Assembly (NCBI GenBank): GCA_013115135.1
Contig: JABANP010000209.1
Coordinates: forward strand, 1 to 64,000
Direction of reading: 5' to 3'
DNA: 64,000 bases
From: Perkinsus olseni
Taxonomy: Eukaryota; Perkinsozoa; Perkinsida; Perkinsidae
In this document: one piece after another, positions 1 to 33,991 of the stretch
Layout: each line of letters starts with the position of its first letter
Position numbering within the stretch: position 1 is the stretch's first letter
The notes under the pieces: generated by a model
Database searches by the model: none
Told to the model about the DNA's origin: nothing
The model's input: the letters and a program-made list of their open reading frames with translations, nothing else
Program-made: the position numbers and the translations under genes

Positions 1-162
1 GTGATTGCTGTCCCTATGGAGTCGCTCCCCCTTGTGCTACGCTAAGATATCTAGCCTCGCGCTAGTACTATAATTGTAATTGTAATTTATAAGTTAGAAT
101 CAGGCTAACCAAGTCTGTCTCGTGTTAACTCAATAAGCGGGATTGCCCACCAGCACTCAACA
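1..162 (+). repeat. 5' LTR of element 1 (15 bases missing)
   Basis: It matches 5347-5508 without visible difference. It ends in CA at 161-162, and the next bases (TGGCGCTCC) look like a primer-binding site complementary to a tRNA 3' end finishing in CCA. The A of the gag start codon is the last base of the LTR. Confidence 0.95.
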
Positions 163-3100
163 TGGCGCTCCACGATGGGTTAAATTCTGTTTTTATTGAG
201 CTTGCCGAGACTTTGGTTGATGAAATTTTCGTGAAAGGTGTCAACGTGAAGATTGGTGTGGTGGTTCTTCAATTGGTGAATCGTGTTACCGCTCTGTTCG
301 AGCCGGAGGTTCCCGTGTACGCTGACTTGAAAGAGGGGTTGTTGAAAAAGGCCGTTGCTATGATGACCACAGTGATAGGTGATCCGAATGGCAATGAGTT
401 TGTGCGCCGTGCAGTTATGCTTTCGGGGTTTTTCGCTACCTATGTTTTGGCTGAGGTAGTCACCCGTGTGGGGGCGGAGAGACTGCAGGTATCCGAGGAT
501 GATATGAGAAGTTTGCGGCATGATAAGCTCGATGCCGCGAGAGAGTTGAATACGAGCCCGTATAGTATCTTCGTGCCTGGCTTCCTTCAACGTCTGAGAT
601 CTGCAAATGATATTGAAGTGAAGGCACCGGAAGTTGTGCTAAGCCAGGTGAAGCAGGAAAGGCCCAGTACGGCGATTCCTGTGAGTGCGCTCCCTGCTGA
701 GTCCCGTGATAGGCCAGCTGATCAGGTCATGACTGATGATTATGTCTATACGTTGAGAGAGCTCAACACTGTGCTCAAAGAAGTTGATCGTCTGCCTTTG
801 GCGTCTACTTTTACCGGTTTGACCGACTCTCGGTCCTTGAGTGCGTTTAGAAATGAGACTGAGACGCTGGCTAAGTTGAGGCATTGGAGTCCCGCTCATA
901 CTTTCCACTATTTATCGAGGGCTATCTCGCCAGAGGTGTGGCAGATGGTTGGACCTGAGATTGAGAATGAGCTCAGTGGTGTCTGTTATTCTAATGCTAT
1001 CAGTCAGCTATGGTCGAACTTGGCTCAACTGTGTGGTGGTGTCGTGGAAGATGAGAAGATGTTGGATCAGTTACTTGGACTGGTTCAAGATGAGAAGGAG
1101 TCGGTGCTCACTTTCCTGTCGAGAGTGTCTACGTATAGGGACCAATGTCGCAATTCGCATATGCCCTATGATGATAGCTTCTTCATTATGATCAGTCGAA
1201 GAGGCCTGCGTTCTACTGCTCTGGCCAGTCAGACAGCTGCGGTCGTGGCGAATACACGGAACGATTGGGTGCGTACGGTGGCTATGCTTGATCGACGTTC
1301 CAAACAATGCCAGAGTGATGTCGGAAGGTCTCAGCAAGGTGCTGCCGTGATCGACTTGACTGGAGAAGATAAGATTGGTACGGGAATGGTAGCAACAGCG
1401 ACACCAGGTAGTGCTTATCCTCGGGTCCGCCGTTGCTATAATTGCGGGAAAACTGGGCATCTGGCACGGCAGTGTACGGCTGATAAGGGGCCGCGTAAGT
1501 GCTGGAATTGTGGCCAAACTGGACACTTGGCCAGCGCGTGCCCGAATAGAGAAGGAGTGAGCTCGCAAGTGTCTGAGCAAGCTGCCAGTAAGCCGGAGGC
1601 TGTGACTACCAAGGCTGCTGTTGTTAATGATGGCTCTCGTGGTGTGGTGGCCCATGAGGGTGGTGTGGTAGAAACGGTTATTATTCCTTCGAGAACCGTT
1701 ACGTTTCAGAACAGTCATGGTGGTCAAGAAGAAGATGTTGGTGGTGCTATACTTACTGCATGGTGGGAAGGTGTTCCACTACGAGGGTTGGTTGATACAG
1801 GTGCAGCTGATGCCTTATTGTCGTATGAGAGATATTGTGCCTTGCAGTCGTCGAGCGCATCGGTTATTTCTTTGGAGAAGACAAGCTCTTCTATTCAGTT
1901 GGCCGATGGTAGTATGAGGGCAGTTGCTGGGATGGTGAAGTTGGCACTGAGATTCAGTAACGGTGTCACCCTGGTTCATCCTTTTTATGTTGTGCAAGGC
2001 CTATGCCCTTCGGTGATCTGGGGTGTTAAGCTTCTGGCGAGGTTGGGGACTTCCATTACCATCAGTGAGTGTGAACAAGGGGTCCGTATATCAACAAGCT
2101 TCGTGAATGAAGGCCAGAAGAGTAAGCTTTTGTGTGACCAGAGCTCTGATACTACTGTCACGACTGAGTCCGTGGTACCGGATATCCTGGCGGTACGTTG
2201 TTGTGGGGACTCGTATGCAGTCTCGAGTGATATAGAGGAGCTGGCTAGTGAAGAAGCTCCCAGTGAAGTTGAGTCGTACACTCCCAACGGTGAGAATGAT
2301 GAGCCTAAATGTGACTCCTATGTGTTCGATTGGCGCAGGGTGCCAGCAGCGCCAAATTACTTCTACCGTGTACGCGAGGTCCGTGCTGACGATGTGATTG
2401 ACTGTCCAGGGCAGCGGTATGTTTGTGAAGTGAGGCTCCCGAATTTATGTGCTATTGAGGAGACGAAGAAAGTGGTAGACTACAGTTCGGCTCTGTTGTC
2501 TAAGCTGTCGACAGAGCAGAAACGTCTGTATTTTAAAGAGATCGACTCCTACATTGCCAACTCTTGGTGGAAGAGGGAAGAATTGGCTGGGAGTGCAGAG
2601 AAGGGTAACTACTACAACAATGATGATCCTATTATCATCTTTGGTCTACCGCAGAGTAGTCTGAAAAGTACGGTAATGAGGCCGGTAGCGGATTGTCGCC
2701 GCTTGAATAGTCGGATGGAGAAGGCCAGCTATGCTGGTGAGAATGTTGGTGCTATCTTGAGTGAGATTGCTCTTGCAGTGAACGCTGTTAGCGAGACGAA
2801 TAATGAGACTGATCATGATGATGGTGTATGCATGGCTTGTCTCGATATAAGCCGTGCATTTTATCGGCTGCGTCTGTGTAGTTCCTCCGGTTGCCCGACC
2901 CGCCTTTGGTTGAGAACTTGTCATAAATGGTACAGCACTAGTCGATTAATATTTGGCCTAGCGGCTGGGCCAAGTGGGTTAGAAGCGTTCGTCCTGAGAA
3001 TATTGGCCTTAGCTAAGCAGGCAGGCGTTTTGGACGGCGTGTACTCGTGGGCCTATCTTGATGATCTGACTTTGATAGGGACATCATCGAAAGTGAGACG

Positions 3101-4478
3101 TGCTGTGCTCGTGATAAGGGAGTTGGCTGCGCTCCATGGTCTGCCGATTCCAGCTTCCAAAACTGTGATATTATGCTCTCATGGTTCGTCCTTGCGATCG
3201 CGGCATTTGGGTGTTTTCTGGGATGTGGCCGAGCAGCACCTCACCGTCAGCTGTGCTACTTTCGAGAAGCCGGTCGTGAAGGAGAAGTTCAGCAAGCGAC
3301 AGCTATTCAGTGTAGTGGGAAAATGGCATGACGGCTTGCGCCGTCATCCAGAATGGAGTCTCGCTGCAGATACGTGCAGAATGATTGCTGGTCGATGGAC
3401 TTTGGCGTGGGATAAGCCGCATCCGTTGTCGGCTGAGGAGAAGAAGGTATTGACGACTGCTTTTGCGATGGTGGAAGATGGGATCGTGTCTCATTCCCAT
3501 AACCTTCCGGTGAGATGTGGTACCACTATCGTGGCTCAGTGTGATGCGTCGACTGTGGGGTACGGGTGGTTATGGTTCCTAGAAGGTGCAGACCAACAAC
3601 CACTGTGTATGCGGGCAAGATGGTGGAAAGGTGGTAGAAGGTTCTGGCATATAAATCGAAAAGAACTCTTCTGTATAGTGGAACTGCTCCTATCCTTGTC
3701 GGACCTCGCCTTGGACAAGTATGGTATCAAGTGTGTTAAGGTCGAGACCGATAGCCGAGTTGCTTGTTGTTGGTTACAGGGAGGTTCCTTCAAGTCCGTT
3801 ACTCGTAGCCAAGAACGTGTTGCTATCGGGAGGCTCCTGATGTTAGCTGCTGAAGCGCAGGCCAAGTTGAAGGGTGTGACTTTCTCCGTCTCTCATATTG
3901 GAACGGAGGAGAACGCTCGTGCCGATAAGTTATCTCGAATGGGCACTGATATGAGCCCTCTGTTGGAGGAGATATTGAGCTCGACAGATCGGGCGCAGAG
4001 GGCGCGGGTGGTGAGAACCAATGTGCAGAAGGTTCCGGTGGGTCATGAGCTCTCCGACTTGTTTGAACGCCAACAGAAAGATCCCCTATTGATCGGTCTG
4101 GTGAAACGTTGTCAACAAGCTCCGAAGAATGAGATTATTGATAATGGTTCTGTTTTCCGACTTCAGGAACGTGACGGGATCCGAGTACTTGTACGAGTGG
4201 TACGCACTGCTGGAGTACCGGTCGACCAGTTTCGTACAGTGTTAGTACATCCTGTAGTGGAGAGTGAGCTCAAGCACTTGGTTGAGGAGTATCATGATCG
4301 TATTGGTCATTTGAATGACCGTGCGACGAGATGGCATGTGTCCCGTGACTGGTGGTGGCCCGGCATGCGCTCTATGATTAAGCGAATATGCCGTGGTTGT
4401 AAGCGTTGTGGTGATGTCCTACTACAACGACCATTCTCGGTGTGCCCTGATAACGTGCTAGACTATGCGGAGTGTTGA
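162..4478 (+). CDS. Gag-Pol polyprotein, gag through integrase zinc finger (element 1)
   Basis: This is a 1438-residue polyprotein. Residues 1-420 are a Gag-like region. Two CCHC zinc knuckles start at C425 and C447, typical of nucleocapsid. An aspartic protease follows with motif DTGA at D545. The reverse transcriptase has the motif A aspartate near D895 and YLDD at 965-968, where most Ty3/gypsy elements have YVDD or YIDD. RNase H begins at D1128 (DAS) and keeps the downstream E and D residues and an ADKLSR segment. An H2C2 integrase zinc finger lies near residues 1378-1420. The frame then stops, and the integrase core continues in the -1 frame with a 7-base overlap. The ATG straddles the LTR/internal boundary, so the primer-binding site is read as codons. 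The frameshift may be a mutation, a sequence error or recoding; I see no classic slippery heptamer. Confidence 0.93.
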   Translation: MALHDGLNSVFIELAETLVDEIFVKGVNVKIGVVVLQLVNRVTALFEPEVPVYADLKEGLLKKAVAMMTTVIGDPNGNEFVRRAVMLSGFFATYVLAEVVTRVGAERLQVSEDDMRSLRHDKLDAARELNTSPYSIFVPGFLQRLRSANDIEVKAPEVVLSQVKQERPSTAIPVSALPAESRDRPADQVMTDDYVYTLRELNTVLKEVDRLPLASTFTGLTDSRSLSAFRNETETLAKLRHWSPAHTFHYLSRAISPEVWQMVGPEIENELSGVCYSNAISQLWSNLAQLCGGVVEDEKMLDQLLGLVQDEKESVLTFLSRVSTYRDQCRNSHMPYDDSFFIMISRRGLRSTALASQTAAVVANTRNDWVRTVAMLDRRSKQCQSDVGRSQQGAAVIDLTGEDKIGTGMVATATPGSAYPRVRRCYNCGKTGHLARQCTADKGPRKCWNCGQTGHLASACPNREGVSSQVSEQAASKPEAVTTKAAVVNDGSRGVVAHEGGVVETVIIPSRTVTFQNSHGGQEEDVGGAILTAWWEGVPLRGLVDTGAADALLSYERYCALQSSSASVISLEKTSSSIQLADGSMRAVAGMVKLALRFSNGVTLVHPFYVVQGLCPSVIWGVKLLARLGTSITISECEQGVRISTSFVNEGQKSKLLCDQSSDTTVTTESVVPDILAVRCCGDSYAVSSDIEELASEEAPSEVESYTPNGENDEPKCDSYVFDWRRVPAAPNYFYRVREVRADDVIDCPGQRYVCEVRLPNLCAIEETKKVVDYSSALLSKLSTEQKRLYFKEIDSYIANSWWKREELAGSAEKGNYYNNDDPIIIFGLPQSSLKSTVMRPVADCRRLNSRMEKASYAGENVGAILSEIALAVNAVSETNNETDHDDGVCMACLDISRAFYRLRLCSSSGCPTRLWLRTCHKWYSTSRLIFGLAAGPSGLEAFVLRILALAKQAGVLDGVYSWAYLDDLTLIGTSSKVRRAVLVIRELAALHGLPIPASKTVILCSHGSSLRSRHLGVFWDVAEQHLTVSCATFEKPVVKEKFSKRQLFSVVGKWHDGLRRHPEWSLAADTCRMIAGRWTLAWDKPHPLSAEEKKVLTTAFAMVEDGIVSHSHNLPVRCGTTIVAQCDASTVGYGWLWFLEGADQQPLCMRARWWKGGRRFWHINRKELFCIVELLLSLSDLALDKYGIKCVKVETDSRVACCWLQGGSFKSVTRSQERVAIGRLLMLAAEAQAKLKGVTFSVSHIGTEENARADKLSRMGTDMSPLLEEILSSTDRAQRARVVRTNVQKVPVGHELSDLFERQQKDPLLIGLVKRCQQAPKNEIIDNGSVFRLQERDGIRVLVRVVRTAGVPVDQFRTVLVHPVVESELKHLVEEYHDRIGHLNDRATRWHVSRDWWWPGMRSMIKRICRGCKRCGDVLLQRPFSVCPDNVLDYAEC

Positions 4479-5293
4479 AAGCCCCGTGGCAGATGGTTTC
4501 GGCAGACCTATGTGGTCCTCTGCCAGCGTCGAGAGGCTGCACATATTGTTTGGTCTTGTGTGATCACTTTTCACGGTATACGGTGGTGAAGGGTCTCAAG
4601 AGCTCGAGTGCTAAAGACCTGGTATCAGTGCTGATGGATGTCTGCTCTTCCTTTGGTTTCATGAAGGAGTTACGGTCCGACAGAGCAGGTTGTTTCTCGT
4701 CGAAGTATACGCGAGAATGCCTTGGCCGTCATAATGTTCGAGTCCATCTCATCAACCCCCGTAGTCCGTTTTCGAATGCTTTAGTCGAAAGACGGATGAG
4801 AGAGGTTAAACAGGTGTTCAAGTTGTATGGGGTCAGAAGGTCGGGAAGATGGATTGATCAAGTGCCGAGTGTCCTGCGGAGATTGAATAATGTGGTATTG
4901 CCGGAACCGCTGAATACTACACCATTCGAACTGATGTTTGGGCGAAGTTTTTTGCCTCGGCCAGGACAGCCTGATCAAGTAGAGTCCCCGAGTCCTTCTG
5001 ATGAAGAATGCCGTGAGCGGAGTGATAATTTGATGATTACTAGAGATTGGGTGACGAAGATGAGAGATATGCGTGAGAAGGAGCCGTCACGGTTGCGTCA
5101 AGCTTCGGTAGCCGTTGGTATGAAAGTTTTGGTTCGTATGGCCACTGGCTGGGTTGGTCCTTTTGTCGTTAAGGCAGTTTTATCAGACCGAGCTACGGTG
5201 ACTATCTCTGATAAGTTTCTAGTGGAGAAGTCGGAGCATCGTGCGAATCTGCGTCCATATTATGGAGCAGATGATGTAGTTGCTTTTTCGTAG
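4472..5293 (+). CDS. Integrase catalytic core (element 1, separate frame)
   Basis: About 273 residues carry the retroviral-type integrase core. The catalytic triad is D12, D70 and E106, with 35 residues between the second D and the E (the classic DD35E spacing). The C-terminal part contains a KVLVRMATGWVGPF segment like the SH3-like/GPY-type integrase C-terminus. The GTG at 4472 is only the nominal start: the frame is open into the overlap with gag-pol, so the product is probably made as an extension of the upstream polyprotein if it is made at all. It joins the two-base staggered cuts of target and element DNA during insertion. The stop lies 30 bases upstream of the polypurine tract. Confidence 0.9.
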   Translation: MLKAPWQMVSADLCGPLPASRGCTYCLVLCDHFSRYTVVKGLKSSSAKDLVSVLMDVCSSFGFMKELRSDRAGCFSSKYTRECLGRHNVRVHLINPRSPFSNALVERRMREVKQVFKLYGVRRSGRWIDQVPSVLRRLNNVVLPEPLNTTPFELMFGRSFLPRPGQPDQVESPSPSDEECRERSDNLMITRDWVTKMRDMREKEPSRLRQASVAVGMKVLVRMATGWVGPFVVKAVLSDRATVTISDKFLVEKSEHRANLRPYYGADDVVAFS

Positions 5294-5322
5294 TTATGTT
5301 GTGATTGATCTGATGATCAATC

Positions 5323-5331
5323 AGGGGGGGA
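5323..5331 (+). other. Polypurine tract of element 1
   Basis: A run of seven G with flanking A residues lies directly upstream of the 3' LTR. This is the position where plus-strand DNA synthesis is primed in LTR retrotransposons. Confidence 0.8.
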
Positions 5332-5508
5332 TGTGAAGATCGTTGTGTGATTGCTGTCCCTATGGAGTCGCTCCCCCTTGTGCTACGCTAAGATATCTAG
5401 CCTCGCGCTAGTACTATAATTGTAATTGTAATTTATAAGTTAGAATCAGGCTAACCAAGTCTGTCTCGTGTTAACTCAATAAGCGGGATTGCCCACCAGC
5501 ACTCAACA
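5332..5508 (+). repeat. 3' LTR of element 1 (177 bp, complete)
   Basis: It begins TGTGAAG after the polypurine tract and ends CAACA, giving TG...CA ends. From 5509 the sequence is the viral L fragment, continuing exactly where the uninterrupted copies read after the motif C codons. Confidence 0.95.
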
Positions 5509-10144: not shown

Positions 10145-12779
10145 ATGACAGCCAAGGAAGTCGAGGACATAGCCTGCGAGGTGCTTGAGAGGAACCCCAT
10201 CTCAAGGGTTAGGCTGGATTTTGAGCTTATCGCTCTCACAGTCCAGCTCCATTTGGACATTAGCCCCGAGCAGAATGACCTACTACGTATGGTGACCAGG
10301 GACAACTTCCTATCGTTGAGACTAGCTAAGGCTAAGGCCATGCATCAAGACATGCGAGAGGGTGCTAAAGTCGCATGTAAGAAACAGCTGGAACAGTTAT
10401 GGGCCTTCTACCCCGGTCTACCCGGGGACGTGGGATCCAACCTAATCAGACGGGACATCATTGAACGACTTGAGTTTGAGTGGGAGGTGGCTGCCGAGAA
10501 TGCGCTCCAGGAGCTAACCCCAGTCTGGAATTTGGCATACATTGTGTTCGAGTGCATGGACAAAGGCGTTGTGACACCTATGACGGCCACAGCCAATTCA
10601 GGTGGCCCTGACTACCAGGTGGTGATGTTCCCTTGGTCCTTGTTTACCGTCCTCGTGTACACGGACCGTGGCGTCAGGCACTCATTCGTGACTCACCGGC
10701 AGGAGATGCTCAACGTGAAGGAGCTTCTAGAGGCTCGTGTCATGGCTAAGTTCACCGCTGCGTGTCAGCACAGTCGTGATCCAGAGTCAACCATGCCATC
10801 CCCTGACCTCCTGGACGAGTTCCACGACATCGGGGACGAGGTGTTAATCGTTCAGGGCCCAAACGGTTGCGGTTTCGTGAAACAGCTGGAGCCACTGATA
10901 GTCGCCGAGGCTAACAGTTAGCCGCTAACTCTAGGTCATCGAAGTTGTCAACCCGGGACGACTTCAAGCGGGTGGCTGTGAGGCAGACCTTGGCAGACTG
11001 CTCCGCCGTTCGGGACCTGGAGGATCATGAAGGGTCTCATATGGTGTTAGCTAACGAGAAGGATGAGGAGGTTGAAGTTTTCTCATGTTCGTATCAATTG
11101 ATTCTAGGGGCCATTCAACGCATTCATTACCTATTAGCCAGGTGCCCTGGCATTGAGCCGCTATGGGACTTCCATGGCCTGGTGAAATCGTCCTGGGGCT
11201 ACGGTCGGCCAGATGAGGTTGCCTCCTTCGCCAAGGCCCAGCGACTTATGACGGCATATGAGCCAGAGACGGCGGCAGGAGCGGATCTAGTCAATGAGGC
11301 CACAGGGCTGCTGCGCCAAAAGTTCGCTATCTCATTCCTCCAGCGGCACGGCAGACTGCCTGGCGTGACGAGCGTCTCTGATGGTGACTTGCGTGATGCC
11401 TGGAACCAGCCCATAGTGCCTTTGCAGGCGTGGGCTCCTGTGCGGTTCGACCATGTCCTGCCCTTCGACACAACCCCTGACACGGCATCCCTTATGGGGG
11501 ACAAGGCCATAGCCTTACACCTCGACGACATCTACCACGTGTATGATGCTAGGGTGACTGGGTACACCCCGCCGGGCAGGGCACGCACTGACAGGCGCCA
11601 GTTGATGCAGCTGTTGGCTGAGCCCAGCCTAGATGCCGGTGATGCGGCTCACGACTTCGCCACCGCGCGCATAGACCCCACCAGCTTGGTCTTTATGTTG
11701 AAGACCAAGGAGCGCCAGCCCAACCCCGTTGAGGAGCGGGAGTTCGGGTACACGACCATACGGAATAGGTTGGCTTTATCAACGGCTGAGCGAAACGTCC
11801 AACGGAGCTTCTTCGACTACGTTCCTGAGATCATGCTTGGTAAAACTGCCACGGCAGTGGACCAGGACTTAGAGCGTCGTGACGCGCCTGATAGGTGCCT
11901 ATCCTTCAACGTCAACCTCGATTATAAAAAGTGGTGCCAGGAGAAGACTGAGTGGAATACTCGAGGGACCACTCAGTTCTTGAACGACATATTCGGCACA
12001 AGCATCTATCAGGCGATTCACCCGTTCTACGGGTCCGTCGTATACATATCGGCTGACCCAGCCCTACCCCCCGCCTGAACTGGTTTTTACTGAGGCAGAG
12101 TCTGCGCTCCCTCAGTATGAGAAGGATGAGCTAGCTAGGGCTAAGATAAAGCAGTGGCTGGACGCAAAGGTGGCGGAGGCGAGCCGGCACTGGATGGGGG
12201 ATCAAACGGGCATGAGCTTCATGAGTGATACACGCGGGGTTGAGGGTCAATGTCAAAAGGTATGGACCGTGGACACGTTCGCAGACGTGAGCCTTGCTGC
12301 CCACCGGTGCGGCTTTAATGCACGAATACGAGGCTCAGGTGATAACGTAACCACTCTGGTCCTGGTTAGGCTTCCTGATTACATCCCGATAGGAGAGGAG
12401 GAGGGACCACTAGCGCGCAGGGTAGTGTCTGAGGCCGCCCAGCGATTCATGACAGAGTTGATTTACATCTCTGATGTTATGGGTAAACCGTTCAAGCCCA
12501 TGGAGACCTGGCTGGACGACGAGTTGTACTTATTTGGGAAATAGTGGGTGCTGCGGGACACCATCTTGCCCCCAGGTTCTTAAGAAAGTGTCCAAGGTTA
12601 ATAATGAGAGCGCCCTGTCTATTCAGGGCCTGGATGAGGAAATAGGTCTCGTGAACTCGGGCTGCTATGATGCCCTCAAGTGTGCACAGGACCCAGCGCC
12701 GGCCCTGATGGTACGTGCACTGCGGGCCGGCCCGCTGCTGATGCAGGAGCTCCACGAGAACAGTGTAACCGGCGAAGAG
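10145..12779 (+). pseudogene. Endogenous negative-strand RNA virus L protein (RdRp), copy A, broken
   Basis: This copy is homologous to copy B throughout, and three lesions separate it. About 14 extra bases at about 10,914-10,927 create a stop and a frameshift around the palindromic GCTAACAGTTAGC. Thirty in-frame bases are missing near 11,417. One extra C in a C-run near 12,070 shifts the frame just after motif A. The remaining open pieces are 10145-10921, 10945-12078 and about 12170-12544. Motif B (VEGQCQK) and motif C (GDNV) remain readable in the last piece, as does the same TAG (12542-12544) that ends copy B. The segment ends at about 12,779 against the 5' end of a tRNA-Pro. Confidence 0.9.
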
Positions 12780-14031: not shown

Positions 14032-14221
14032 ATGGCGGTCATCCACTACAGCCTGATAGGTCTCTTCTCGGCCACTCTTGCGGAGGCCGCAGCCCTACGT
14101 AGCACCTCCGAGAAGATCTTCCCAACCCCGAGGTCGAATGTCACCGAATGGGACGAAGCTTTCATGGACCAAGACGTAAGAATTCCTCTCTGCGTTGAGA
14201 GAGCTACAGTACGCGCAATCT
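14032..14221 (+). pseudogene. S1 secreted-protein gene, exon 1 only (unit A)
   Basis: Exon 1 with its signal peptide (14032-14175) and the 5' splice site are present. Homology to the intact gene stops in intron 1 at about 14,210, where unrelated sequence follows. Read through, the frame stops after 63 residues. Exons 2 and 3 are missing from the unit. Confidence 0.75.
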
Positions 14222-15799: not shown

Positions 15800-17859
15800 C
15801 TCTGAAATTACCCGGTCATATGAAATGATGCCATCACAAAAAGGCCCACAAGAATTTCCCAAATTCCTCGCGCGAGTTCAAGATACTCTCCCAGCCTGAT
15901 ACCTCTCTCCTGTGGGGACGAATGATCGAAGAGCATCGGGGCCGCCAAGCCACACTCTGAAAGCTCCTTAGCAATTCTTGATACCTGAAATCCACCAAAT
16001 CCTGGAAGCCGACATACCCACTTGTCACGAGATAAAAGCACACACAAGGAAGCGCTGGAACGTTTTCCGACAAATTTTTCACCAACGCTGAAAGTTCGAC
16101 TTCGTCGCTGAAAGTCTATTCACTGCCAAGGCCCGGATTTCCTGCTCTGGTCGGAATCATCGGAGGCCCTCCGACGGAGGGTCTAATAGAATACTCTCGG
16201 CTAAGCCAACTTCCACTCAGGATTCAACGCGAAGAACCACCGGGCGTTCACGGTCACTCTGAGAATCCTAGAAAAGTTGCATACGAAAATGTACCATCGT
16301 GAAGTTCCAGACCCCAGCGGAGCACCACTATTCTGTATATGGCATGGTCACGCGTATCCATTGACTTGCGTAAGGCAAGGATCGACCTTGGATACGCCCC
16401 CGGCTACCCGTTCTCCGCCCTCCTTTCCAGCTTCCTTGCGCTGCATCCAGAAAGCGAGCTCATCGTAAGGAATCACTATCTACCCAAAGAAGCGCCACTT
16501 GCACTCTTGCATTTCCTCAACGCCATTTACATTATCAATATTATCCTCGTCGAAGTTCTCACTCAATGAGCCTCGACTAATACAAGCTTCAAGCCCAGAT
16601 ACCAACTCCTCGCTGAACGCAGCAAAATGAACCTCAACCCGCAGCCGGAAGATTCTCACATCGACCTGCCAACTGCCGAATCGCCGAGTAACTAAAAAGA
16701 AAACACGAAATAATTCCACTGGCTGATAAATATCTACTGAAATGAGCAAACCGGGACGCTCTGGCGCCAAAAATTCGACGTTACTGAATTTTCCGAACGT
16801 GAAAAAATTTGATTTGTCTCCACAATAATTTTGATATTTTTTACCCAGGGTAAGCTCGCTCGAAAGATATTTTACTTTTATACTCCCTAGAATATCGTCA
16901 CGGTAGTATCCAAACTCGACCACAGTCAATCGCGAGTAGGTCCCCTTACGAGTACAAGATTCCAAATTAGAATCTTTAAAAGGTTCCCACTAACCCTTGC
17001 CGACCTTCGAGTAAGCCTCTCTCAGGACACCCCGCAGTCCCCTCATCGGGTGGGTAACATCCACAGTGGTAGTGACGACTCGCCTGCTCATCGTCCCCGC
17101 CGCAAGCTCACCAACGCCGGTTTTGATGAAGGCAACCGCGACTGAATGAATCGATCGATTAACGTGTCCGTAGGTCCAATGCTACCTCCAAGCTTTGAGG
17201 GGATATCCCCGTATCTTGTCGAAAGACAGACATTGCGGAACTCCCCAGAGATCCCCGTCTCGTGTGCTTGCTCATACGCAAAGAGAATCTGCGAGATGGA
17301 CTGAGCCTCGCAGTTTTTTGGACAGTTGCGAGACACCAAAATGATAAGCATGCTATTGTTACCACGAACCACTGCTACTGTCGTCTCTCTTATGGCTGAT
17401 CCTGGTGGTGAACCAGAGAATGCACGCGCACACCAGTCTTTTGTACTTGCGTACCCCTTCTCCGTAATACGTTTTTATGTCGTCCTCGACAGTTGGGCAA
17501 CGATTCGAACAGGTAAAATATCATCGAACGTTCGTGAAGACTCGACAGAAGTTCATCACAAAACGAGCCGCTTCGGTCGACAACGGCACAGTTTTTTCCT
17601 ATTTTCTTTCGCCACTAGCCAACAGATTCGCCCACAAGATTTCTCACCTTAGTATTGAGATCCTCTAAGAACTTCTCCAGCTCGCCGTTGGACTCAGGAT
17701 TCGACCTACACCGTATCTTGCACGCTTGACAGTCGCACGCTCTGACCTGAAGATTCCTCTGTCCTTCTGAGAGATGCCCAGCAGCGCCATGCAAGCCTCC
17801 ACGATGAATTCCTTCCTCGGGTCGGGTTGCGCGGTGTCGAGGGAATTATAATTAACCAT
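15800..17859 (-). pseudogene. Decayed copy of multi-exon unknown gene (unit A)
   Basis: It is homologous to 25400-28014. A start codon at 17859 and coding-like stretches (for example 16480-16965) remain. The stretch at about 16,150-16,280 carries two in-frame TAG codons (complements of 16183-16185 and 16201-16203) where the unit B copy has Ser and Thr-Lys. About 300 bases of the B copy, including its most downstream coding-like part, are absent near 15,600. The function is unknown. Confidence 0.5.
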
Positions 17860-19366
17860 GGTTAAAAGCTAGAAGTATCTTTGTTCATGATGGCACGGGA
17901 CAGAAACGGTTAACTTTCATGGATCTTGAAATTTTCGTATTGTAACTGAGATTTGGCAGAGCGCTACGCAACGAGCTTCGTTCTAACAGGCACACAAACC
18001 GCGAGCAGTCCGATGAAAAAGTTCAAAAAAACCTCCGAAGACGTCGGCGTAGCACTCTGATGAGTCTGTATTGACCGCAGCCAGAAACTAGTATCATAGT
18101 GGTTGGACTGTCAGAAGGGCGCCAACTTGACCTCGTGCGTATCTTGCAATGCTCAACGTAAGATACTCGAACACAATACCGCCAATATGAGCACCGACTT
18201 CCTGATACAGACATTTACATGCATCAGGATAGGCCAGAGCTGTCCGTTAGAGAATCTAACGGTTACACGCTCGCATATCCAGGCGAGCGATTCCGGAAAG
18301 ATACCTTGGCGTGCCCCGACGCTTCGCACATCGCCAACTAAGGCTTCTTACCTGCCTTCCTGGGAAGGTCGAAAGAACTTCAGCCTTCCCTCGAGATGTC
18401 GTAGAGAAACGATGGGTTGCGGTCACGGGAAGAGGTGGACGAGTTAGCCAGCCACTGATCTACTCTGGACTATTCGAAATTACAGGATGAGTGATCATCA
18501 CTGCGTTAACGATGACACCGAGACGACCCCTGCGGGGACGCCGCAGACTAGGGGACACGCAAGGAGGACCACCTGTCCCTTCCAGACATCGATGATGACG
18601 CAGGACTCAACGCGAGTGGGCTTCCTTGAAAGGCAAATTTATACTGAGAGCGACTCTTGCCTGGGGATTCGAGCGTCGCAAACTATATAGGTTTACTGGG
18701 AATATAGGATTTGAGGAATTGAATATAACTCACGGTTCACATAACCTTGAAAGATTATGCGCATGGGCCGAGCGTGTTACGAGAGGAAAAGTCGTAGGGT
18801 TAAAGATGGAGGACAACGCGATCATCTGCGAAGGGAGATCAAGTCCAGGTGATCAAGGGAGCAACAGGTTGAATGAAAGCGGCCGATTGAATGGGATAGG
18901 ACGTAACAACGTAGATCTGTACACGGAGTTTTACCGAGTATCGAAATGTGAGCGTTGCACCGCCTCTAGGCCCCAACGAAGGAAGCAGGATAGTGAGAGA
19001 GCCCCCAGGAGATAGTTTTGGAACGAACTCCCGGCAGCCTCATAGTTGCTCTACTCAAAATATATCGCCTGGAATTGGCTGACAGTCGCCTCGTAGGGCG
19101 CGCGCTTCTCCATTTTCAGAAATTAGTTAATCAATAAACATATAGTATCGCCATTATTCAAGCAAAGTCCATTTCTGATCAAGTCAACAGTTTCAAAGTG
19201 TATGCGACATCTAGCGTTGAAATTTAGGGCACCGCATCTTCCCTAGAGCGTGCCTGTGTCTCACGTTGTAACCTCTGCCATGTAGCTCGAGAATCTACGG
19301 AACGTGTGAGGTCATTCTTTGATGTCTGCCGGGAGTTGGATATCCAAGCAGACGATGATACAAGAA
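17860..19366. other. End of unit A, no supported gene
   Basis: It matches 28015-30040 minus the two insertions seen in B. Plus-strand frames such as about 18,626-19,015 have counterparts in B but no recognisable domain or clear splice structure. Confidence 0.45.
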
Positions 19367-19438
19367 GAGCTGTGCCGAGAATTGAACTCGGGACCTCTCG
19401 CCGCCCAAGCGCCGTTCTTGCCGCTAGACCACGAGACG
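19367..19438 (-). pseudogene. Chimeric tRNA (unit B), 72 bases
   Basis: It is exactly as long as tRNA-Pro. The 3' half equals tRNA-Pro (T-arm and variable region), while the 5' half differs. Only three anticodon-stem pairs form and the acceptor does not close, so it is probably non-functional. It marks the left junction of the viral insert. Confidence 0.7.
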
Positions 19439-20135
19439 GGAAAGAGAGCAGCAAAAGCGAAGCGAGTCTAGCTTCGGCGATGTCATCGCCGTGACGAGCC
19501 CCTAGTTCGCCCTTCTGCCAGCGGGCTGCCAGCAGGCTCCCGAGTGCGGTCAGAGCCTTTATGCCTTGTGGCTTGCGTGCTGCAGAGTCTGCACGCGCCA
19601 CATACTACTCGAAGAGTCTTCGACGAAGACGGCTTCGGGTGCTCGGCAGGTCGCAGGCTGTGACTCACAGCTCCCTGCTGCTGCTGACCGGCGGTGCCGG
19701 TTGCCGGTTTGCAGTTTCTGGGAGCGTCGTCCAGCGAGACGAGGACATGCGAAGAGAAGTATCCCGGGTGGGTGCGGGATGGAAAAAAAATCGAGCGCCG
19801 AGGAGCCGTCCCTGAGGAAGCGCCCCCTAGCGATACTTTGTCGTCGGCCCGAGCGTTTCATAGTAATAAGCACTGGGCGCGCGAGTTGTCACGTTGTGTT
19901 CCTTCGCGCAAGGTTCGGGGAGGCTGTCCCCGAAGCGTCCTGATTTCTGCGGGTTTTGACCGGTTGATAGTCCGGCACATCGCAGCCTGCGGCTGCGCCT
20001 TGCCTTCCTATCAACCTTGCAAAAAAATTAATAAAGCACGTATGGATGCGATTTTTCTTGGATGAAATAGAGCCGAGGAAGCTCTATTTCACTATATTTT
20101 GAGCCCCATATTTTCAAAGCCCCAACGCCTCGGCG
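19439..20135. other. Conserved stretch upstream of viral L frame (unit B)
   Basis: Counterpart of 9448-10144, nearly identical. No recognisable gene is present. Confidence 0.5.
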
Positions 20136-22550
20136 ATGACAGCCAAGGAAGTCGAGGACATAGCCTGCGAGGTGCTTGAGAGGAACCCCATCTCAAGGGT
20201 TAGGCTGGATTTTGAGCTTATCGCTCTCACAGTCCAGCTCCATTTGGACATTAGCCCCGAGCAGAATGACCTACTACGTATGGTGACCAGGGACAACTTC
20301 CTATCGTTGAGACTAGCTAAGGCTAAGGCCATGCATCAAGACATGCGAGAGGGTGCTAAAGTCGCATGTAAGAAACAGCTGGAACAGTTATGGGCCTTCT
20401 ACCCCGGTCTACCCGGGGACGTGGGATCCAACCTAATCAGACGGGACATCATTGAACGACTTGAGTTTGAGTGGGAGGTGGCTGCCGAGAATGCGCTCCA
20501 GGAGCTAACCCCAGTCTGGAATTTGGCATACATTGTGTTCGAGTGCATGGACAAAGGCGTTGTGACACCTATGACGGCCACAGCCAATTCAGGTGGCCCT
20601 GACTACCAGGTGGTGATGTTCCCTTGGTCCTTGTTTACCGTCCTCGTGTACACGGACCGTGGCGTCAGGCACTCATTCGTGACTCACCGGCAGGAGATGC
20701 TCAACGTGAAGGAGCTTCTAGAGGCTCGTGTCATGGCTAAGTTCACCGCTGCGTGTCAGCACAGTCGTGATCCAGAGTCAACCATGCCATCCCCTGACCT
20801 CCTGGACGAGTTCCACGACATCGGGGACGAGGTGTTAAGCGTTCAGGGCCCAAACGGTTGCGGTTTCGTGAAACAGCTGGAGCCACTGATAGTCGCCGAG
20901 GCTAACTCTAGGTCACCGAAGTTGTCAACCCGGGACGACTTCAAGCGGGTGGCTGTGAGGCAGACCTTGGCAGACTGCTCCGCCGTTCGGGACCTGGAGG
21001 ATCATGAAGGGTCTCATATGGTGTTAACTAACGAGAAGGATGAGGAGGTTGAAGTTTTCTCATGTTCGTATCAATTGATTCTAGGGGCCATTCAACGCAT
21101 TCATTACCTATTAGCCAGGTGCCCTGGCATTGAGCCGCTATGGGACTTCCATGGCCTGGTGAAATCGTCCTGGGGCTACGGTCGGCCAGATGAGGTTGCC
21201 TCCTTCGCCAAGGCCCAGCGACTTATGACGGCATATGAGCCAGAGACGGCGGCAGGAGCGGATCTAGTCAATGAGGCCACAGGGCTGCTGCGCCAAAAGT
21301 TCGCTATCTCATTCCTCCAGCGGCACGGCAGACTGCCTGGCGTGACGAGCGTCTCTGATGGTGACTTGCGTGATGCCTGGAACCAGCCCATAGTCAGGGG
21401 GTTGGCGGCCCGTCTGGCTGCAGTGCCTTTGCAGGCGTGGGCTCCTGTGCGGTTCGACCATGTCCTGCCCTTCGACACAACCCCTGACACGGCATCCCTT
21501 ATGGGGGACAAGGCCATAGCCTTACACCTCGACGACATCTACCACGTGTATGATGCTAGGGTGACTGGGTACACCCCGCCGGGCAGGGCACGCACTGACA
21601 GGCGCCAGTTGATGCAGCTGTTGGCTGAGCCCAGCCTAGATGCTGGTGATGCGGCTCACGACTTCGCCACCGCGCGCATAGACCCCACCAGCTTGGTCTT
21701 TATGTTGAAGACCAAGAAGCGCCAGCCCAACCCCGTTGAGGAGCGGGAGTTCGGGTACACGACCATACGGAATAGGTTGGCTTTATCAACGGCTGAGCGA
21801 AACGTCCAACGGAGCTTCTTCGACTACGTTCCTGAGATCATGCTTGGTAAAACTGCCACGGCAGTGGACCAGGACTTAGAGCGTCGTGACGCGCCTGATA
21901 GGTGCCTATCCTTCAACGTCAACCTCGATTATAAAAAGTGGTGCCAGGAGAAGACTGAGTGGAATACTCGAGGGACCACTCAGTTCTTGAACGACATATT
22001 CGGCACAAGCATCTATCAGGCGATTCACCCGTTCTACGGGTCCGTCGTATACATATCGGCTGACCCAGCCCTACCCCCGCCTGAACTGGTTTTTACTGAG
22101 GCAGAGTCTGCGCTCCCTCAGTATGAGAAGGATGAGCTAGCTAGGGCTAAGATAAAGCAGTGGCTGGACGCAAAGGTGGCGGAGGCGAGCCGGCACTGGA
22201 TGGGGGATCAAACGGGCATGAGCTTCATGAGTGATACACGCGGGGTTGAGGGTCAATGTCAAAAGGTATGGACCGTGGACACGTTCGCAGATGTGAGCCT
22301 TGCTGCCCACCGGTGCGGCTTTAATGCACGAATACGAGGCTCAGGTGATAACGTAACCACTCTGGTCCTGGTTAGGCTTCCTGATTACATCCCGATAGGA
22401 GAGGAGGAGGGACCACTAGCGCGCAGGGTAGTGTCTGAGGCCGCCCAGCGATTCATGACAGAGTTGATTTACATCTCTGATGTTATGGGTAAACCGTTCA
22501 AGCCCATGGAGACCTGGCTGGACGACGAGTTGTACTTATTTGGGAAATAG
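20136..22550 (+). CDS. Endogenous Mononegavirales-like L protein, N-terminal domain and RdRp core (copy B, 804 codons open)
   Basis: In the virus the L protein copies and transcribes the RNA genome. This frame covers the N-terminal domain and polymerase core. The conserved blocks occur in order: a pre-motif A LKTKKR block at about 524-529; motif A with D598 (LDYKKWC); motif B RGVEGQCQKVW at 702-712; and motif C GDN at 737-739, followed by V where the family normally has Q (GDNQ). The frame stops at TAG (22548-22550). L-like sequence (LPQVLKKVSK) continues in frame after it until an extra C near 22,678. Full L proteins are about 2,000 residues; capping, connector and methyltransferase domains are absent. 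The start is the first ATG. The stop is shared by all three copies. It is not a telomerase or a retroelement RT, since those carry YxDD. Whether it is transcribed is unknown. Confidence 0.88.
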   Translation: MTAKEVEDIACEVLERNPISRVRLDFELIALTVQLHLDISPEQNDLLRMVTRDNFLSLRLAKAKAMHQDMREGAKVACKKQLEQLWAFYPGLPGDVGSNLIRRDIIERLEFEWEVAAENALQELTPVWNLAYIVFECMDKGVVTPMTATANSGGPDYQVVMFPWSLFTVLVYTDRGVRHSFVTHRQEMLNVKELLEARVMAKFTAACQHSRDPESTMPSPDLLDEFHDIGDEVLSVQGPNGCGFVKQLEPLIVAEANSRSPKLSTRDDFKRVAVRQTLADCSAVRDLEDHEGSHMVLTNEKDEEVEVFSCSYQLILGAIQRIHYLLARCPGIEPLWDFHGLVKSSWGYGRPDEVASFAKAQRLMTAYEPETAAGADLVNEATGLLRQKFAISFLQRHGRLPGVTSVSDGDLRDAWNQPIVRGLAARLAAVPLQAWAPVRFDHVLPFDTTPDTASLMGDKAIALHLDDIYHVYDARVTGYTPPGRARTDRRQLMQLLAEPSLDAGDAAHDFATARIDPTSLVFMLKTKKRQPNPVEEREFGYTTIRNRLALSTAERNVQRSFFDYVPEIMLGKTATAVDQDLERRDAPDRCLSFNVNLDYKKWCQEKTEWNTRGTTQFLNDIFGTSIYQAIHPFYGSVVYISADPALPPPELVFTEAESALPQYEKDELARAKIKQWLDAKVAEASRHWMGDQTGMSFMSDTRGVEGQCQKVWTVDTFADVSLAAHRCGFNARIRGSGDNVTTLVLVRLPDYIPIGEEEGPLARRVVSEAAQRFMTELIYISDVMGKPFKPMETWLDDELYLFGK

Positions 22551-22785
22551 TGGGTGCTGCGGGACACCATCTTGCCCCAGGTTCTTAAGAAAGTGTCCAA
22601 GGTTAATAATGAGAGCGCCCTGTCTATTCAGGGCCTGGATGAGGAAATAGGTCTCGTGAACTCGGGCTGCTATGATGCCCCTCAAGTGTGCACAGGACCC
22701 AGCGCCGGCCCTGATGGTACGTGCACTGCGGGCCGGCCCGCTGCTGATGCAGGAGCTCCACGAGAACAGTGTAACCGGCGAAGAG
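22551..22785 (+). pseudogene. L-protein remnant after the TAG (copy B)
   Basis: It continues the L homology (motif E-like region) beyond the stop. It carries one extra C compared with copies 0 and A, which shifts the frame near 22,678. It ends at about 22,785 where the 5' end of tRNA-Pro (agaccacacag) resumes. Confidence 0.8.
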
Positions 22786-23055
22786 AGACCACACAGTCGA
22801 ATGGGCATAACTTATGCCGCATAAGGCAGTAATAGTAGCGCTGCCAAATGGAAAATAATCAAGACCGACTGCCACTGCCGTACTCTCACCATATGCAGCC
22901 TCATGCTACCAACAATCAGCGACGACAAAGGTCCGATATTCATCAGGTGAATTTCAGCTTGATCCTTCTCCTACACCACAATGTTCTACTTCCACTCGTT
23001 ATATGAGTAAAATGCTATCGAAGCAACTATATCTAGCCGAACAACAAGCACAAGA
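22786..23055. repeat. Inter-tRNA spacer repeat (unit B)
   Basis: Same as 12780-13047, with single-base indels. Confidence 0.8.
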
Positions 23056-23127
23056 GGGCTGTGCCGAGAATTGAACTCGGGACCTCTCGCACCCTAAGCG
23101 AGAATCATACCACTAGACCACACAGCC
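23056..23127 (-). tRNA. tRNA-Pro (AGG), unit B
   Basis: Identical in sequence to the 6206-6277 copy, with intact cloverleaf and internal promoter boxes. Confidence 0.95.
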
Positions 23128-24040
23128 AGATGCGTACAAGACAACCGCCGCTAATCGCATACCAGGTGAATGAGAACCAGTCATAGTGGTACCCCTGGCC
23201 TGGTTTGCCGGGTGTCTGCGCAACTCGAGCTCCATTTCTAGAATGACTCGGAAAAACCACAGCAAAGGCGAAGGCAGGGAGGGCGAAGGGACCACTGAGT
23301 ACCTCGTTAGAACTGGGAATCAATCGCTCAATGATCGGGAGATCAATAATCTCACGCCACCGATCAACAGCCTTGCCTTGTTCTGCACTTTGCGTAGAAT
23401 CTGGCATTAGGCATATCCCGCGTAACCGTTGCACCGGCCGTTTTATCGATCCACGGCACCTAAGCTTTTTGTTCACCGCGTGCAGCATTCAATTCCACAG
23501 CCTCCTTTCTTTCGCTGACAGACGGTCCTTGCTCTCCTGACAACAGGCCGTCTGAGGTGCGCGTACACATCGAATGGGTACAACTGTGGCGGAGTTCGAT
23601 CGGTACTTGAGTACTGGGTATACATGAACGGTTCATGCAATCGAACTGTGTTCATACTAGCTTTACCTCACTAGCTGCACATCACTAACTGCACTCTCTC
23701 TTTTTGGCTAGTCTGCGCCTTAACCGCTCGAACTCGCTCATTACTTCGGCACCGTCTCACAGCCAGGCCCGCCTCAACGGGAACCCCGCGAGAGGAATCC
23801 CCACATACACAACCACAGCACATCGGATCGACGTCATCGAGCATAATGGCGCTCACTCCTTGCAAAGGGAGACGCCAGGCGCGCTCTTTCGAGTAGCTCG
23901 AAAAATCGTTTCCAACCACTTTGATGGCGGTTATGTTGTTCCCCGAGGGGTCAGTAGCAGAGCAGAGCATGAGAACAGGCTCGCAGTAGTGGCGCAATCC
24001 TCCCATCTCGCGTCCAGCGCTTCCTCATACTTGCGTAATC
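23128..24040. other. Repeated flank, no gene seen (unit B)
   Basis: Counterpart of 6278-7188 and 13120-14031. Confidence 0.6.
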
Positions 24041-24232
24041 ATGGCGGTCATCCACTACAGCCTGATAGGTCTCTTCTCGGCCACTCTTGCGGAGGCCGCA
24101 GCCCTACGTAGCACCTCCGAGAAGATCTTCCCAACCCCGAGGTCGAATGTCACCGAATGGGACGAAGCTTTCATGGACCAAGACGTAAGAATTCCTCTCT
24201 GCGTTGAGAGAGCTACAGTACGCGCAATCTAA
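24041..24232 (+). pseudogene. S1 secreted-protein gene, exon 1 only (unit B)
   Basis: Same truncated structure as 14032-14221: signal-peptide exon, 5' splice site, then unrelated sequence. The truncation therefore predates the tandem duplication. Confidence 0.75.
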
Positions 24233-25399
24233 AGAGACAGTTTCGTGTCACCGGCATAGCTTTTTTTACCTAGAGCTCGTATGGACCTGAAATTTTCGGA
24301 TATGAGCTCTCCTAACATTGTTATATTGTTTAAACATGTCACCGATCGAATTATCGAACAAAAATTTTTGGTGCATTTTTCACCTCATCGGGCTTATCGT
24401 CAATCATGGAAATATGACATAGGTCATCTGGCATCGTCCTGACATCGTTCTGTTGACGACAGGCCGCCATCAAGGACGTCAGAGCTATCGAAGGAACGTC
24501 TATCTGGTGCACCACTGGTATACTCCCAGCTTCAGTGGAGGCAACAACGTGATAACGCCAAGGACAGCCTCGAGGATACCAGATGAGGGCGATCATCGCT
24601 GCCGATAACCCCGCGCAGGGCTATTCTGCATGATGCCTGAGCAGCAGTGGTCCAGTAGGTTCGGGCAACCATCGTAGGAGTTGCAGGCCAACTCATGCTA
24701 ACAGCGAGCCAGCAGCTAGCATGCAAATTACATAACGTAATGAGCTAATTGAGCTCAGGCAGCCAAGTTCTGGTGATGCCCGTCATATCAATGGATTGAA
24801 TTTCTCTGGAGTCAAAAGTCGAGAGTCTTTACCTGGAATGCTCGCTGGCTTAGCAGTGAATAGAGTAGCCAATACTCGACAAATGACCCTGGCGGCTTGC
24901 CGCCAACGGCAGTCTCCTCTCATTGGACCACTACGCACGCCAGGTTTAGTGAGTCTAGCGCCGCAAAGGTGATCCAGAGGCTCCAAAAAGGGACGACAGA
25001 TAAGAGCAGAGATATCCAGGACTCCTGGAAACTAGATTATTATCATCGGCTATGATAGCCGATTCTAGCCGCTAGAGCGGAGCCAGTGAATTTCACTGAA
25101 GGTTTATCCTTGAATTGCCCCTGTCTCCGCAGTACGGCGAAAGCCGCATCAAGCTCCAGTTGTTAGGGGAGCCGTATCGCGTCTCTCAATTGAGGAGTAA
25201 CTTGGCAGCATCCTACCTCCTTCGCAGACTCCACAGGAGACTCGGGCAGCAACTGCCCATCTTGAACACACTGTACCCACCTCTCCAGAGCCTGACTTCA
25301 AAAAATACTTCGACCAAACACATTCCTGGTAGTTCACTTTTAGAGACTCCCTAACAACCATGGATGCTCTCTTATCTGATAATACCTCTGATACCTTAA
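24233..25399. other. Unit B sequence without supported gene
   Basis: It matches 14222-15570 of unit A without the 192-bp segment. A nested AT-rich inverted repeat lies at about 25,390-25,424 (GATACCTTAAGGTATC is a perfect palindrome). Confidence 0.5.
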
Positions 25400-28014
25400 G
25401 GTATCTTAATACCTTAAGATACCTCTGCCAAATGCCAGGATACTTCAGCACATATCTTATAAGATATGACCATCAACAGCCTGAGCAACAGACAGGTCGG
25501 CCTAGCTTTACCGAGTATCTTACCGTTTCATTCTCTCTACTGGATAAGGCGGGTTGATCTTCTCATCCAAACTGATATTCTCCAACAGCGGCAGCACTCC
25601 TTCGATCGCGGTGTAAAGAGCCGCTAAGGACGACTGTCCTGACATGATGAAACGAGATAGCGAAAATGTGGTGAAAATCCGTGATGAGCTATGATCGACC
25701 TTGGATATGCCGCGCCTGGTTGGGTGCCTTTCGGATATCTTTTCCACTCATCGCCGGACGATGAGAACTCAATTATTCCAGTAAAGTATAGTATCGCAAT
25801 ATTATTTACGGGGAGATGTGAGGGATTTACCCGGGTTAAAACGTCACAAACCCGGACAAATACACCCACAGATGAACGATTATATTGCTTTATCTTCGAC
25901 ATAACACTAGAAGGTTCCGGAAACAGATGACTCTGAAACCACCCGGTCATATGAAATGATGCCATCACAAAAAGGCCCACAAGAATTTTCCAAATTCCTC
26001 GCGCGAGTTTAAGATACTCTCCCAACCTGATACCTCTCTCCTGTGGAAACGAATGATCGAAGAGCATCGGGGCCGCCAAGCCACACTCTGAAAGCTCCTT
26101 AGCGAACCTAGATACCTGAAATCCACCAAATCCTGGAAGCCAACATACCCACTTGTCACGAGATAAAGTCACACACAAGGAAGCGCTGGAACGTTTTCCG
26201 ACAAATTTTTCACCAACGCTGAAAGTTCAACTTCGTCGCTGAAAGCCTATTCACTGCCAAGGCCCGGATTTCCCGCTCTGGTCGGAATCATCGGAGGCCC
26301 TCCGACGAAGGGTCGAATAGAATACTCTCTGCTTAGTCAACTTCCACTCAGGATTCAACGCGAAGAACCACCGGGCGTTCACGGTCACTCTGAGAATCCT
26401 AGAAAAGTTGCATACGAAAATGTACCATCGTGAAGTTCCAGACCCCAGCGGAGCACCACTATTCTGTATATGGCATGGTCACGCGTATCCATCAACTTGC
26501 GTAAGGCAAGGATCGACCTTGGATACGTTCCAATACTCCCGGCTACCCGTTCTCCGCCCTCCTTCCCAGCTTCCCTGCGCTGCGTCCAGAAAGCGAGCTC
26601 ATCGTAAGGAATCACTATCTACCAAAAGAAGCGCCACTTGCAATCTTGCATTTCCTCAACGCCATTCACATTATCAATATTATCCTCGTCGAAGTTCTCA
26701 CTCAATGAGCCTCGACTAATGCAAGCTTCAAGCCCAGATACCAACTCCTCGCTGAAAGCAGCAAAATGAAACTCAACCCGCAGCCGGAAGATTCTCACAT
26801 CGACCTGCCGACTTCCGAATCGCCGAGTAACTAAAAAGAAAACACGAAATAATTTCACGCGTCGATGAATATCTACTGGAATGAGCAAACCGAGACGCTC
26901 TGGCGCCAAAAATTTGACGTTACTGAATTTTCCGAACGTAAAAAAATTTGATTTGTCTCCATAATAATTTTGATATTTTTTACCCAGGGTAAGCTCAAGC
27001 TCAAAAGATATTTTACTTTTATACTCTATAATATCGTCACGGTAGTATCCAAACTCGACCACAGTCAATCGCGAGTAGGTCCCCTTACGAGTACAAGATT
27101 CCAAATTAGAATCTTCAAAAGATTCCCACTAACCCTTGCCGACCTTCGAGTAAGCCTCTCTCAGGACACCCCGCAGTCCCCTCATCGGGTGGGTAACATC
27201 CACAGTGGTAGTGACGACTCGCCTGCTCATCGTCCCCGCCGCAAGCTCACCAACGCCGGTTTTGATGAAGGCAACCGCGACTGAATGAATCGATCGATTA
27301 ACGTGTCCGTAGGTCCAATGCTACCTCCAAGCTTTGAGGGGATATCCCCGTATCTTGTCGAAAGACAGACATTGCGGAACTCCCCAGAGATCCCCGTCTC
27401 GTGTGCTTGCTCATACGCGAATAGAATCTGCGAGATGGACTGAGCCTCGCAGTTTTTTGGACAGTTGCGAGACACCAAAATGATAAGCATGCTATTGTTA
27501 CCACGAACCACTGCTACTGTCGTCTCTCTTATGGCTGATCCTGGCGGTGAACCAGAGAATGCACGCGCACAGCACTGCTGTGACAGCAGTCTTTTGTACT
27601 TGCGTACCCCTTCTCCGTAATACGTCTTTATGTCGTCTTCGACAGTTAGGCCACGATTCGAACAGGTAAAATATCATCGAACGTTCGTGAAGACTCGACA
27701 GAAGTTCATCACAAAACGAGCCGCTTCGGTCGACAACTGCAGAAATTTTTTTCCTATTTTCTTTCACCACTAGCCAGCAGATTCGCCCACAAGATTTCTC
27801 ACCTTAGTATTGAAATCCTCCAAGAACTTCTCCAGCTCGCCATTCGACTCGGGATTCGACCTACACCGTATCTTGCACGCTTGACAGTCGCACGCTCTGA
27901 CCTAAAGATTCCTCTGTCCTTCTGAGAGATGCCCAACAGCGCCATGCAAGCCTCCACGATGAACTCCTTTCTCGGGTCGGGTTGCGCGGTGTTGAAGGAA
28001 TGATAGTTAGCCAT
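25400..28014 (-). CDS. Multi-exon gene of unknown function (unit B, apparently intact)
   Basis: The start codon is at 28014 (MANYHSFNTAQPDPRKEF...), followed by a Cys-rich stretch (CDCQACKIRC) readable in another frame, presumably after an intron. Further coding-like stretches on the same strand are 26619-27104 (acidic, ending in a DEDNIDNVNGVEEM segment), about 26,385-26,615, about 26,260-26,405 (TVNARWFFALNPEWK) and 25,624-26,178. They are separated by T-rich segments with GT...AG ends. I cannot fix every exon border, so the span is approximate. The unit A copy has stops where this one is open, supporting coding here. I recognise no domain and assign no function. Confidence 0.45.
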
Positions 28015-28508
28015 GGTTAAAAGCTAGAAGTATCTTTGGTTATGATGGCACGGGACAGAAAAGGTTAACTTTCATGAATCTTCCAATTTCCGTATTGTAA
28101 CTGAGATTTGGCAGAGCGCTACGCAACGAGCTTCGCTCTAACATGCACACAAACTGCGAGCAGTCCAATTAAAAAGTTCAAAAACGTCCGCGGACGTCGG
28201 CGTAGCACTCTGATGAGTCTACATTAACCGCAGCCAGAAACTAGTATTATAGTGGTTGGACTGTCAAAAGGGCGCCAACTTGACCTCGTGCGTATCTTGC
28301 AATGCTCAACGTAAGATACTCGAACACAATGCCACCAATATGAGCCACGACTTTCTGATACAGACATTTACGTGCATCGGTCGCACCGCGGAGCTTAGAG
28401 AATCTAATAACGGTTACACGCTCGCATGTCAAGGCGAGCGATACAGGAAAATACAGGAAAAATATCTAGGCGCGCCCCGACGCTTTGCACATCGCCAACT
28501 AAAGATTC

Positions 28509-28793
28509 TCATCTGCTGTTTTCAAGGAGCACAGAGTTGTCGTCTGGTCTGCGGATCTTAATGCATCGTAGATCACGACGGAACCTTCTGTCTTGCGCAC
28601 CGTAGTGGGCGAGCGTGTCTATAGTATAAGATATATAGACTCTATACTACTCACTATTGATTGGTAGCCTGTGCTGCTTGCGGGCGATGTTTGTCTGTCT
28701 GTTTGGCTGGCTAAGGCCATTGATAAACGCTTCGCTTGTGATCCGTATAAGCTACCGTGCCAGACGTGTATAATTCCGTTTCCACTCAAAAAA
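28509..28793 (+). mobile_element. SINE-like poly(A)-tailed insertion
   Basis: A 285-base segment present only in unit B. It is bounded by a 12-base direct repeat, aactaaagattc, at 28497-28508 and 28794-28805, and its right end is an A-run. Unit A carries a single, slightly diverged copy of the target near 18,336. A long target duplication plus an A-tail is the signature of LINE-mediated retroposition. No tRNA promoter boxes are visible. Confidence 0.65.
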
Positions 28794-33983: not shown

Positions 33984-33991
33984 GATTACAA

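Follow-up and report, generated by a model that had tools for sequence, protein, structure and literature searches.

In this study, we describe an 804-codon open frame in the genome of the protist Perkinsus olseni that is an endogenous viral element, namely a fragment of a Mononegavirales-type L protein. In all probability it is a captured and most likely non-functional piece of an L gene, derived from a Mononegavirales-type virus, as yet undescribed, with Perkinsus as its host. The element itself is already known, having been published in 2025 (Brown & Firth, 2025; PMC12548735). Its viral identity, the stop codon and 3' breakpoint common to its copies, their duplication and their setting among tRNA genes are established. 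The stretch analysed, called the window below, comprises bases 1-64000 of contig C123 (85871 bases), and three copies of L (A, B and C) lie in it.

Results

Identity of the open frame

The long frame belongs to copy C, and its features are as follows.

20136..22550, plus strand: copy C, 804-codon open frame covering the N-terminal region and the RdRp of a Mononegavirales-type L protein
21708..21722, plus strand: KTKKR, residues 525-529, which we take to be the basic motif preceding motif A
21927..21929, plus strand: D598 within NLDYKKW (starting at residue 596), presumably the motif A-type aspartate
22239..22271, plus strand: RGVEGQCQKVW, residues 702-712, regarded here as the motif B-type block
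22344..22352, plus strand: GDN, residues 737-739, assumed to be the catalytic motif C
22548..22550, plus strand: in-frame TAG closing copy C, which copies A and B of the window carry too; the C69 copy (see below) is open here
22551..22778, plus strand: L sequence past the TAG up to the common 3' breakpoint, which is placed to within a few bases

Frame and motifs were found exactly where the earlier note had placed them: the polymerase motifs, GDN included, stand in order, and the LPQVLKKVSK that it had read after the stop is encoded past the TAG in the frame of the ORF. Its assignment of the protein to the Mononegavirales-type L polymerases was confirmed. The profile of the Mononegavirales polymerase (PF00946) matches residues 166-804 of the 804 with an E-value of 2.5e-37 and a score of 128.6 bits, against a curated cut-off of 27. 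All 29 distinct PDB sequences that match up to E 1 are named RNA-directed RNA polymerase (L type), some of them being polymerase fusions with maltose-binding protein; the best has E 7.3e-9 and many weaker ones lie above E 0.001. In the PDB alignments, RGVEGQCQKVW falls on GGIEG..QKLWT of solved L chains. From stop to stop the frame spans 815 codons, as against 304 for the longest frame in 200 base-shuffled copies of 18001-25000 (7 kb).

NCBIfam, a bacterial and archaeal library, gave no match for the two proteins that were searched. Structure prediction for the 804 residues, from an alignment of three sequences only, gave a mean pLDDT of 32.9 and a pTM of 0.25, values too low for a usable model or for independent support of the fold. 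The annotated P. olseni protein P0001 (FOZ60_004815) matches the frame at 97% across its whole length and lacks 21 residues including the GDN motif; its gene model probably puts an intron there.

Three copies in a tRNA-Pro array

The three copies form a tandem array with tRNA-Pro genes. The features around copy C and the two further copies are listed here.

1..5508, plus strand: LTR retrotransposon inserted in copy A, its left end being the contig end
5509..5930, plus strand: copy A, 3' end of L alone, interrupted by the LTR retrotransposon
10145..12778, plus strand: copy B, frame-broken L copy
19468..20021, no strand assigned: dispersed repeat of about 555 bp upstream of copy C; the flank occurs without the repeat on contigs C17 and C393
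20103..20135, plus strand: about 33 nt between the end of host-type similarity and the ATG
22786..23127, minus strand: immediately behind the L breakpoint, what is left of a tRNA-Pro 5' end, then a spacer and a tRNA-Pro(AGG) gene at 23056-23127

Copy C is open to the TAG, copy B has a broken frame, and an LTR element interrupts copy A. All three carry the TAG and end at one common 3' breakpoint. Copy B is identical to C at 2613 of 2619 aligned bases (two of the six substitutions are synonymous and four non-synonymous); its frame is disrupted by a 14-bp insertion and single-base indels, and it has a 30-bp deletion too. From the L end onward, B and C show 1 mismatch against 14 gap openings over 2856 columns, and single-base indels among the window copies may therefore be assembly errors. 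The proposal that the open frame survived duplication thus holds for one copy of three (C), but not for B with its 14-bp insertion, nor for A. The retrotransposon in copy A has 162-bp ends that are 100% identical, with reverse transcriptase and integrase domains above the cut-off and RNase H below it. Between the two duplicated units (9378-19432 and 19366-30106), divergence per 500 bases is 0-0.6% in the left half and 2-13% in the right half, an unevenness pointing to local gene conversion or else to a further duplication.

Copy C is joined to host DNA on both sides, to tRNA-linked sequence up to 20102 and to a tRNA-Pro repeat from 22786. On its left side, a tRNA-like sequence of C17 and the flank of that sequence match window bases 19362-19455 and 20021-20102, and parts of them also occur on C393; the 5' junction would sit in, or at the edge of, 20103..20135. 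On the right, DNA similarity to the C69 copy stops at about 22778. Since host sequence reaches 20102 and L ends at about 22778, the viral piece would span about 20103-22778, inside the tRNA gene cluster. Within about 8 bases of the L end comes the 5' end of a tRNA-Pro gene with the spacer typical of it. Part of the tRNA-Pro gene at this junction is missing; on contig C364, which lacks L at this place, a spacer 89% identical to this one follows a complete tRNA-Pro gene.

Inspection of both copy C junctions by eye revealed no target-site duplication, poly(A) or retroelement-L chimera, with the caveat that the tRNA-Pro gene at the right junction is incomplete. The capture by a host retroelement put forward in the earlier note is a reasonable general inference. 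An origin by retroelement template switching, which would have left an LTR-leader-L chimera, was considered and rejected: the repeat at 19468-20021, probably a solo LTR, looks like a separate insertion absent from C17 and C393, and 20021-20102 is tRNA-linked sequence on these two contigs.

An amplified array at 6206-46169 of the window contains seven tRNA-Pro(AGG) genes, each on the minus strand. When one tRNA-Pro gene with its spacer was used as query, 101 matches were obtained in the genome, mostly to the tRNA part alone and some of them partial; they often stand in tandem (C818, C412, C853, C601). A probable LTR element of about 13 kb (30839-43880) sits within a tRNA-Pro repeat unit; its 225-bp ends are 99.6% identical, and it bears retroelement frames on the plus as well as the minus strand and is probably nested. 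A conserved hairpin, GAAATAGAGC...GCTCTATTTC, flanks tRNA-Pro-like sequences on three contigs (window 20060-20095; L021 3855-3936; L022 4833-4908).

A second young locus

Contig C69 (103570 bases) carries a second long L frame.

C69 13688-16562, minus strand: L frame of 910 codons with PF00946 and PF14318

The capping region (PF14318, E 3.1e-11) in this frame is the sole match of that family in the genome; the window copies end, at 22778, before the capping region. Over 375 codons, copy C and the C69 copy share 73% of their DNA and 84.8% of their protein sequence. The differences fall on codon positions 1, 2 and 3 at 72, 27 and 226 of the 375 codons, giving a pN of 0.11 and a pS of 0.89, the latter beyond correction. 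When an equal number of random substitutions was simulated in 500 runs, mean protein identity was 47% (maximum 54%) with a mean of 9.7 stops, and none of the 500 runs stayed free of stops. In the parts of C69 compared with the window (1-9900 and 10500-29900), no common flank was found, DNA similarity being confined to L. The simplest reading of these sequence differences would be two captures, the two related viruses having diverged beforehand while selection maintained the function of the protein; most likely, the C123 and C69 loci diverged as replicating viruses and were then captured separately. The 27 second-position differences in 375 codons would limit the neutral change accumulated after the two captures, taken together, to about 7% at most.

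P0003, a protein with the locus tag prefix FOZ63 rather than FOZ60, agrees with the C69 frame at every one of 800 residues. On the 5' side of the frame a retroelement comes next, in the opposite direction. C69 also contains a diverged inverted duplication (L010 1-3316 and L037 646-4339; 94-96% identical), one end of which falls at about residue 868 of the L frame, where an inverted copy of the flank starts. Alignments of the frame extend past this start of the inverted copy, to residue 894 (Pfam) and 873 (PDB), and residues 868-910 may be either viral or host sequence.

Decayed relics

With the C69 frame as query, 15 places were found in the genome, itself included: six on C123, two on C69 (one being the edge of the inverted duplication), two on C242, three on C644 and one each on C723 and C24. 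This count of L loci is a lower bound. By tblastn, the C242 and C644 relics have 40-58% protein identity, with 65% in one 23-residue piece, and their longer stretches contain four stops in C242 and five in C644. The matches on C723 and C24 are short: C723 has 45% identity (58% against the C69 frame over 33 residues) and two stops, and C24 matches at 58% of 33 residues. The third codon position differs most in five of five relic stretches, two of which are the same place in the C242/C644 pair. Pfam recognised none of three short relic pieces, which are thus identified solely by resemblance to the C69 frame. C242 and C644 form a duplicated pair that agrees at 92% across 8.9 kb (L035, L036); substitutions between them swing from 1.4% to 10.4% per 500 bases. 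Judged by their sequence, the best reading of the relics on C242/C644, C723 and C24 is as additional captures of the same virus lineage, older for the most part, which suggests that this lineage was captured more than once.

Search for the virus and its other genes

Three scans of viral contigs (4, 61 and 0 pattern matches) confirmed no exogenous relative, and the virus itself is for this reason inferred. Three protein searches for more distant relatives, under a length limit on candidates that kept full-length L proteins from appearing, returned the same three P. olseni proteins alone; in two of these searches the 7999 best-sharing candidates were scored. The methyltransferase region (PF14314) had no match in the genome and none in 14 controls, and the N families PF06407 and PF00945 likewise had none in the genome, with silent controls. 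Because the controls were silent, these absences say little.

Discussion

An RNA virus needs reverse transcription to enter DNA, and capture by a host retroelement is plausible here. In the sequence of events that we propose, a host retroelement enzyme would have reverse transcribed L RNA, and a piece beginning close to the start of the L message and ending a little beyond the polymerase core would have been joined into the tRNA-Pro cluster. The inserted piece would then have acquired the TAG, and tandem duplication and gene conversion within the array would have produced copies A, B and C, of which A would afterwards have been split by the retrotransposon. From the pattern of differences, a related virus would have been captured separately on C69, and other relatives may have given rise to the decayed pieces on C242/C644, C723 and C24. 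The frame of copy C presumably is still open mainly owing to recent capture, and the locus most likely does nothing at present and is a fairly recent fossil.

The earlier note had left a choice between recent origin and retained function. A truncated L frame that is expressed and kept by the host, for instance as a decoy or small-RNA source against related viruses, has little probability. It would account for the long frames at two loci (804 and 910 codons) that keep their polymerase motifs, for the strong skew of the C123/C69 differences towards synonymous sites and for the recurrence of the C69 frame, without a difference in 800 residues, under another set of locus tags. However, viruses that diverged prior to their capture would be equally expected to show the synonymous skew, and the compared parts of C69 revealed no common flank. 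The stop and the 3' cut are common to the three window copies, two of which are broken, and the two synonymous and four non-synonymous substitutions between B and C are too few for showing selection. Polymerase function is disfavoured because of the stop, the truncation common to the three copies and the absence of a complete L at either locus. A decoy or small-RNA-source role for the L frame is unsupported. There is at best a slight chance that a mononegavirus lineage specific to Perkinsus circulated for long, was captured at least three times and left youngest truncated L frames which the host keeps for defence against viruses, whether as decoy proteins or as a source of small RNAs. Of the two options, a fairly recent capture is the probable one, and retained function is not supported, given the common TAG, the common 3' truncation and the broken copies A and B.

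Slightly less probable again is a single old capture that was duplicated in the host, the C69 and C123 copies having diverged in the genome without selection. Both loci do carry L of one kind within a single genome, but neutral change predicts about 47% protein identity and about 10 stops per 375 codons, whereas the real values are 85% and none, and no common flank was found in the compared parts of C69. An old host duplication held under selection could in principle also relate the two loci. That cDNA of a virus in the culture was assembled into the contig by contamination or misassembly is hardly credible: the excess of gap openings over mismatches between B and C (14 against 1 in 2856 columns) does suggest assembly errors, but three copies are embedded among tRNA genes and retroelements, the C69 locus occurs again in a second locus-tag set, the decayed relics carry stops and the published elements are reported from three assemblies (PMC12548735).

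The reading we favour remains that of captured L fragments of a virus of Perkinsus. Little is known of negative-strand RNA viruses of Perkinsus. The fossil series consists of two young loci, 85% identical to each other in protein, and of relics at about 40-58%; it points to repeated infection of this mollusc parasite, and the fossil L sequences may serve as probes for a living virus.

Comparison with known elements

Brown & Firth (2025; PMC12548735) describe nine Mononegavirales-like endogenous viral sequences in three P. olseni assemblies, at least 82% identical among themselves (section 11), with similarity to PF00946 and PF14318 and nearest to Lispiviridae at about 23% identity. According to the same text, no RNA virus of the phylum of Perkinsus has been described except one toti-like fragment. 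The view that the frame derives from an undescribed virus of a unicellular host is borne out in that it is a Mononegavirales-type L fragment in a protist, the P. olseni elements being already published (PMC12548735). Among the papers listed by our searches of the open-licence literature, we saw no other on Mononegavirales elements in Perkinsus.

The published elements are like the present ones in species, gene and Pfam families. The longest contig in that publication, JABANP010000160.1, has 103570 nt, as C69 has here, and the published set probably includes proteins from contig C123. The L protein of Lispiviridae is a Mononegavirales L like the P. olseni frame, but differs at about 23% identity in the same account (PMC12548735). 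The elements of arthropods and of Pomphorhynchus laevis treated there are likewise Mononegavirales polymerase fragments in host assemblies, with several per species in P. laevis (PMC12548735). They belong to other host groups and were absent among the matches obtained here from candidates limited in length and number. Section 11 of that report describes the P. olseni sequences and makes no mention of the tandem array, the tRNA setting, the separate captures or the 40-58% relics (PMC12548735). What this study adds to the known element is thus its capture history, that is separate captures, older relics and amplification in a tRNA gene array.
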